Shown one piece after another: positions 19,969 through 20,598 of a stretch of DNA of 21,594 bases. Source of the stretch: a virus; the IMG/VR virus record IMGVR_UViG_3300031787_000959, positions 1-21,594 of that record; one strand, 5' to 3'. The stretch's first letter is position 1. Each line of letters opens with the position of its first letter. The translations under genes were made by a program, and so were the position numbers. The notes beneath the pieces were generated by a model that worked only from the letters and a program-made list of their open reading frames with translations, did no database searches and was not told the origin of the DNA.

Positions 19969-20598
19969 CTACGCCCGTTTTGGTGCCCAAGCGGGCATCG
20001 GTGAAGCAGAAGCCTCAGGACGGCTACCACCACCGGCTTTTTCGTTCCGCACCCAGTTGCGCCATGTCGCGTCCCAGTCGAGCTTCACACCCTTGGCGCC
20101 GGGCTGCGCAATCCAGAAGTCCCGGAACCTATCAGCCACAGCCACAGGGTTGAGATCAGGCCGAAACTTCCGACAGAAGGCTGTCTGTGAATCAGTCGCT
20201 ACCCAATCAGTAGGCAGTCGAGTTCCACGAGACTGCTTCTTCTGCTCTCTCTCTGTCTCTGTCTCTGTCTCTCTCTCTGGGATAGCAGGTTGCAAGCAAG
20301 GTGCTAGCATCGTGCTAGCATCCACAAAGAAACCTTTATCAATCAATGGCTTGAGACCCGCCTCTATCTCTTTGCTAGCAATATGCAAGCGGAAGGCTAG
20401 CTCTTCGCTAGACGCGTCAAAACTACCGTCCTTCGACTCACTTGCCAGCAGCCAGAGCAATGGTGCTAGCGCCTTGCTAGCAATCGGTAGCCCTGCATAA
20501 ATCCGGTCATTCAGCAGATCTCGGTGTAGCTTTATCCACGGTGGGCAACGATCTTTGTAGTGCTGGAACTTGTCCCAGTTCTTAGGCTTTAGTTGCAT
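19969..20598 (-). CDS. Replication initiator, O/DnaT-like
   Basis: A 209-aa two-domain protein. Residues about 18-100 form a winged-helix-like domain (WIKLHRDLLNDRIYAGLPIASKALAPLLWLLASE ... EELAFRLHIASKEIEAGLKPLIDKGFF). A Thr-Glu linker (RETETETERE, 109-118) follows, then residues 145-187 have RFRDFWIAQPGAKGVKLDWDATWRNWVRNE, a pattern of the DnaT/phage O-type C-terminal region. The protein should bind the origin and recruit the helicase two genes downstream. Its own N-terminal coding DNA carries iterons (20290-20484), as the lambda O gene does. The ATG follows GGGG and leader AAATC directly after a U8 terminator-like element. Confidence 0.75.
   Translation of the reverse strand: MQLKPKNWDKFQHYKDRCPPWIKLHRDLLNDRIYAGLPIASKALAPLLWLLASESKDGSFDASSEELAFRLHIASKEIEAGLKPLIDKGFFVDASTMLAPCLQPAIPERETETETEREQKKQSRGTRLPTDWVATDSQTAFCRKFRPDLNPVAVADRFRDFWIAQPGAKGVKLDWDATWRNWVRNEKAGGGSRPEASASPMPAWAPKRA
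20245..20278 (+). repeat. CT-rich microsatellite / polypyrimidine tract
   Basis: A 34-base run made almost only of CT with three G (GTCTCT hexamers in the middle). It encodes, on the minus strand, the ETETETERE linker of the initiator. It lies 11 bases from iteron cluster 1. Polypurine-polypyrimidine tracts can form unusual DNA and slip in length. Confidence 0.8.
20290..20322. repeat. Iteron cluster 1: three tandem 11-bp units
   Basis: TTGCAAGCAAG (20290-20300), GTGCTAGCATC (20301-20311) and GTGCTAGCATC (20312-20322) follow without gaps. The core is GCWAGC. Eleven base pairs is about one helical turn and not a multiple of three, so the repeat is not made by the protein sequence. Confidence 0.8.
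20372..20415. repeat. Iteron cluster 2: four tandem 11-bp units
   Basis: TTGCTAGCAAT (20372-20382), ATGCAAGCGGA (20383-20393), AGGCTAGCTCT (20394-20404) and TCGCTAGACGC (20405-20415) keep the GCWAG core at the same place in each 11-base unit. The fourth is degenerate (GCTAGA). Confidence 0.75.
20463..20484. repeat. Iteron cluster 3: two tandem 11-bp units
   Basis: GTGCTAGCGCC (20463-20473) and TTGCTAGCAAT (20474-20484); the second is identical to the first unit of cluster 2. A related single TTGCCAGCAGC is at 20442-20452. Together with clusters 1 and 2, probable origin of replication. Confidence 0.7.

Follow-up and report, generated by a model that had tools for sequence, protein, structure and literature searches.

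The initiator gene in this viral DNA carries an array of short palindromic repeats, which, judging from its sequence and its relatives, very probably serves as the initiator-binding part of a replication origin that sits within the initiator gene itself. The window, meaning the whole stretch of 21,594 nucleotides that was analysed, contains the following elements of the replication module:

19969-20598, minus strand: initiator gene, 209 aa, PHROG 26426 replication protein
aa 1-93 of the initiator: N-terminal DNA-binding-like domain (N-domain)
about aa 98-125 of the initiator: disordered linker
about aa 130-186 of the initiator: C-terminal domain
18682-19641, minus strand: DnaB-type replicative helicase of the same module, downstream of the initiator (PF03796, E 2e-18)
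20281-20319, minus strand: iteron cluster 1, four units at 11-bp steps, encoding the linker and forming the family's conserved core array
20374-20412, minus strand: iteron cluster 2, four units at 11-bp steps, lineage-specific
20444-20491, minus strand: iteron cluster 3, two GCTAGC and two degenerate units
20320-20360: AT-rich segment between clusters 1 and 2, with TTGATTGAT conserved on the coding strand; candidate unwinding element, by composition
20233-20279, minus strand: purine-rich tract directly after cluster 1, with GAGA/GACAGA repeats on the coding strand

It is highly likely, in our judgement, that positions 20281-20491 form the origin core within its own initiator gene, and for this core we infer binding by the initiator, melting and helicase recruitment in the following manner. 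The N-domain would bind the 6-bp palindromic cores (GCTAGC in the window), and as these lie one helical turn apart, the bound initiator molecules would stack on one face of the DNA. The resulting complex would strain the adjoining AT-rich segment, the purine tract or both, and the C-terminal domain, held on the disordered linker, would recruit the helicase encoded just downstream. The linker peptide would then be a by-product of the repeats.

An earlier sequence-only reading had taken the gene for an initiator gene, and profile matches bear this out. The N-terminal part of the 209-aa protein matches PHROG 26426 'replication protein' (E 5e-34), a match found in 19/19 members of set A1, and the gene lies upstream of the DnaB-type helicase. 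The C-terminal part matches phrog_3992 and phrog_1408, which are phage primosomal/replication-initiation families, while among the Pfam profiles no family matched the protein. A DnaD-like nature of the N-domain is possible: phrog_186 scored E 2e-4 for the window protein and was seen in 7/19 members, and PF21984 gave only 0.03. The AlphaFold2 model (pLDDT 86 for the whole initiator and 89 for the N-domain alone) shows a confident N-domain, its elements ordered much as in a winged helix, then a disordered linker and finally a helical C-domain. A PDB sequence search found nothing, and a PDB fold search with the N-domain gave no significant match; its second-ranked match, the Rep-DNA complex 5kbj, was not significant (E 1.0, probability 0.47). 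In a viral structure library, the matches were uncharacterised or replication proteins. The invariant residues Q12, H13, R17, P19, W21 and K23 all fall in one segment, before the helix-turn-helix part of the N-domain, and the expected recognition helix varies while the cores stay conserved; the segment Q12-K23 may read the core. Just upstream of the initiator start codon, at 20599-20700 on the minus strand, lies a branched RNA hairpin of high stability that terminates with eight U (-45 kcal/mol, z -4.1); it has no match in Rfam and resembles a terminator or attenuator placed in the leader.

The units of the array are given here by the first base of each hexamer on the plus strand. Cluster 1 consists of 20281 (GATAGC), 20292 (GCAAGC), 20303 and 20314 (both GCTAGC), and cluster 2 of 20374 (GCTAGC), 20385 (GCAAGC), 20396 (GCTAGC) and 20407 (GCTAGA). 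In cluster 3, the exact units at 20465 and 20476 (GCTAGC) are accompanied by degenerate ones at 20444 (GCCAGC) and 20486 (GGTAGC), 21 and 10 bp away. At least nine units with a GCWAGC-type core had been described before, in three clusters, beginning at 20290 and contiguous at 11-bp steps within each. The three clusters stand, but the count in the initiator gene is corrected to eight exact GCWAGC units plus two with one mismatch at exact 11-bp steps, and the start is moved to 20281; the contiguous step applies to clusters 1 and 2 and, in cluster 3, only to the pair 20465/20476. All six GCTAGC hexamers of the whole 21.6-kb window are inside the initiator gene. Since the window-wide count is no higher than chance, it is the clustering and the 11-bp step that are special. 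Two chains of four units at 11 bp are present in the window, whereas among 300 dinucleotide shuffles of the whole window three gave one chain of three and none gave a chain of four. When 64 palindromes were scanned at 24 steps each, GCTAGC at 11 bp was the sole combination in the window to form a chain of four. Shuffling of synonymous codons, with protein and codon usage kept, never reached the observed five exact lag-11 pairs (0/5000; maximum 3). Both shuffle tests indicate that neither base composition nor the encoded protein accounts for the array; moreover, the step is not a multiple of three, so that the reading frame differs from unit to unit.

To see how far the array is kept, relatives were collected in two ways. 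A protein search of viral contigs returned 455 relatives, and a profile search with the N-domain gave at least 578 matches in viral contigs and 41 in bacterial genomes, the bacterial carriers including Bradyrhizobium, Variovorax, Polynucleobacter, Planctomycetes and an actinobacterial assembly. Statistics were based on 149 unique genes found by protein, loci fetched by repeat pattern being left out, and a chain was defined as at least three units, each with at most one mismatch, at exactly 11 bp. By this definition GCTAGC chains occur in 62 of the 149 homologues and GATATC chains in another 62; none of the other 62 palindromes forms chains in more than one gene, and other steps are near zero, except that GCTAGC also has chains with a 21-bp step (12 genes) or a 22-bp step (4 genes). 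The sequence-only reading had held that relatives keeping the protein but losing the GCTAGC periodicity would speak against it; as it turns out, where GCTAGC was lost, GATATC took its place at the same step. The distances between neighbouring units peak at 11 bp (244 against 18 in synonymous shuffles; for GATATC, 76 against 1.4). A looser DNA-pattern search for other core types returned GCTAGC-type arrays only, bar one odd match.

The conservation of the array was then analysed at the codon level in an alignment of GCTAGC-type genes (45 sequences, 813 pairs below 78% identity). It can be seen that, first, synonymous codons are identical far more often than expected at cluster 1 (0.88 observed, 0.38 expected) and at cluster 3 (0.76 and 0.33). 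Secondly, at cluster 2 their conservation is not above expectation (0.37 and 0.41), which marks this cluster as lineage-specific. The proposed check of iteron conservation against synonymous changes in relatives thus comes out positive at clusters 1 and 3 and negative at cluster 2. In this comparison cluster 1, coding for the disordered linker, is the most conserved cluster; in GATATC-type relatives its position and step are kept with a completely different peptide. It has to be considered whether amino-acid conservation combined with codon bias in a conserved domain (ALAS-type peptides) might produce the repeats. Clusters 2 and 3 do code in part for conserved residues, and codon pools alone yield some lag-11 signal. 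However, no synonymous shuffle matched the observed pairs, the synonymous choice is frozen at the array, and the cluster 1 peptide differs wholly between core types under an unchanged DNA step, so that this explanation is extremely improbable. Selection on the DNA rather than on amino-acid repeats, as had been claimed, is upheld by the 0/5000 shuffles and by the frozen codons of clusters 1 and 3.

In rhizobial members (L299 and L302), steps of 10 and 11 bp alternate and GCAAGC occurs with GCTAGC or GATAGC; the units of L302 are at positions 260, 270, 281, 291 and 302, and the mean step in these members is 10.5 bp. The alternation amounts on average to one turn of B-DNA. This bears on a further possibility, namely that the repeats act as RNA in the message, by hairpins, pausing or translation control. 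In some members the palindromes make the predicted RNA fold more stable (z -2.4 at cluster 1; -3.9 in L085), but clusters 2 and 3 show no better folding than shuffled sequence, the predicted hairpins vary between members and Rfam gave no match. A strict 11-bp step and a 10/11 alternation are properties of the DNA helix, and a function at the RNA level seems to us very improbable.

Returning to the origin, we looked at where else the repeats occur. In the six complete phage genomes used (Cr-LKS3, PhiPLPE, PBR31, DC33, ctEw122 and ct2t2046), chains of the cognate core are confined to the initiator gene (6/6), and the other core forms no chains in any of the six. The repeat array is unique to the initiator locus in these genomes and in the window fragment. 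One of the six, Limnohabitans phage DC33 (PQ492659.1, L399), is listed as Inoviridae; its 39-kb genome and its initiator resemble those of tailed phages, and the label is likely a taxonomy slip in the record.

The flanks of the array are also shared within the family. Just upstream of it is an AT-rich dip, with a mean GC of 0.38-0.40 in 40-bp windows over 55 GCTAGC-type genes, and the dip is present in both core types. In the AT-rich segment, the codons TTG-ATT-GAT are conserved at 0.90/0.67/0.94. After the array the purine fraction rises up to 0.87 in both core types, and most distant relatives have the tract as well. The element extends to this purine tract beside cluster 1; the tract itself could be ordinary repeat slippage in the linker. 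The cumulative GC skew, which had been suggested as a check, was equivocal as an origin marker: in the window and in three phages the minima are no farther than about 1 kb from the gene, in three others they are not near it, and the measure is confounded by divergent transcription.

The core type is linked to the N-domain of the gene that contains it. GATATC sits at the positions of GCTAGC with the same step, and among protein-found genes, FQHY goes with GCTAGC in 65 and FQHF with GATATC in 57, with zero exceptions. On an N-domain tree built with the Y/F residue after QH masked, core type and residue change twice, on the same branches; two independent switches (sign test p 0.5) are too few for statistics. 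L060, which lies within the GATATC clade (SH-aLRT 98), has FQHY and a full GCTAGC array, a reversion. Its close relatives L403-L410 have FQHF, a first unit GCTAGC and following units GATATC, and such mixed arrays are possibly an intermediate in core switching. Another FQHY relative found around L060, L415, has two weak units only.

Relatives that share the C-terminal domain alone have a DUF1376 N-domain (tested on L046) and, at the same linker place, AACC repeats instead, which are a second, different type of in-gene iteron. The exchange indicates that the domain travelling with the repeats is the N-domain. These DUF1376-type phage replication proteins thus resemble the initiator of the window in the C-terminal domain and in the position of in-gene repeats, and differ from it in the N-domain and in the repeat. 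In thirteen of them (L046, L047, L049, L053, L058, L063-L065, L071, L072 and L075-L077), AACC steps of 7 bp (34 intervals) and 11 bp (12 intervals) were recorded, mostly in linker DNA. Repeats in the linker region were also seen in other phage initiators with related C-parts, at 8 bp in Babsiella gp64 (L422:682-1620), at 17/22 bp in Bcep176 gp11 (L419:718-1524) and at 8/16 bp in F10 (L420:643-1527), hinting that linker-coded iterons are general among phage initiators. A free-standing N-domain of about 90-105 aa, mostly without arrays, occurs in Massilia, Noviherbaspirillum, Janthinobacterium, Collimonas and related genomes (L282, L284-L292, L294, L296 and L303).

From these patterns we tentatively suggest, with some doubt, that this widespread family is self-addressed: the linker DNA would be the protein's own binding site, the single aromatic residue (Y or F) that follows the invariant QH is associated with, and may determine, which of GCTAGC and GATATC is read, and N-domain and array would be passed on as one cassette among unrelated C-terminal domains, other N-domains such as DUF1376 bringing their own repeats.

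The same observations weigh on two alternatives in which another function is served. The array might be an operator controlling transcription, bound by a repressor or Cro-type protein (for example the YdaS-like one at 20728-20931) or by an autoregulating initiator; short palindromes, regular spacing and a helix-turn-helix regulator next door would suit this. Against it, GCTAGC is absent from the divergent promoter region (20932-21039) and from the rest of the window outside the array, in those relatives that were examined the array is located deep within the gene, and the core type tracks the initiator's own N-domain, another repeat appearing where that domain is replaced. An operator is therefore very unlikely. 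Alternatively, the array could be a partition, packaging or incompatibility site of the phage for another protein, merely lodged in the gene. Plasmid iterons also serve copy control and partition. Nevertheless, over a wide range of hosts the array is found inside the initiator gene, and its type changes together with the initiator N-domain; we give this alternative very little credence.

An origin bound by the initiator, the preferred reading, has counterparts in known systems. In lambda and lambdoid phages, the origin lies in gene O and is bound by O. As in the window, the initiator gene has four successive iterons behind the part for the DNA-binding domain, an AT-rich/purine-rich tract comes next, and helicase functions are encoded downstream; in lambda O the order is the DNA-binding part, four iterons and a tract of GC 0.32 and purine 0.70. 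The lambda iterons are annotated as 18 bp (a 19-bp imperfect inverted repeat in the paper) with steps of 20, 24 and 23 bp, whereas the window has 6-bp palindromic cores, contiguous 11-bp steps and several clusters, a difference that the sequence-only reading had rightly pointed out. Its comparison with a lambda-type origin inside the initiator gene is supported as to layout; a relation of the protein to lambda O is not detectable (hhalign probability 0.1 percent, no BLASTP hit, no Pfam match), and the analogy is for this reason a functional one.

In SPP1, oriL lies in gene 38, where direct repeats and an AT-rich unwinding element are bound by gp38 (G38P) (PMC6316719). It resembles the window in having repeats and an AT-rich element within the initiator gene, and differs in host group and protein; the likeness is one of layout. 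By analogy, the array very probably works like the lambda and SPP1 origins, with an initiator outside the lambda O family. The phage-derived origin ROR of Bartonella, proposed to be lambda-like, likewise has palindromic repeats in a phage initiator-like gene (gene 4) upstream of a helicase gene (PMC3610622). A search for kinship with ROR in 298 genomes of the same family group, which may not include Bartonella, gave one further member of the window family and no link to ROR. The RepA_N plasmid/PLE initiators, to which the non-significant fold match 5kbj belongs, are also iteron-binding replication initiators, but the PLE iterons lie in a noncoding region (PMC7145576). Iterons are not mentioned in the PBR31 paper or in the phiPLPE-group paper; the literature elsewhere may differ.

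To our knowledge, the origins of most environmental phages are unknown. In many uncultured phages and prophages from several phyla, the array allows the likely origin to be located from sequence alone. The family also offers naturally paired initiators and iterons of two specificities, a single residue as candidate for setting the specificity, and a clean system for the co-evolution of initiator and origin in which one stretch of DNA would be both binding site and code. If the family is indeed self-addressed, origin specificity in these phages would be predictable without recourse to anything but the sequence.
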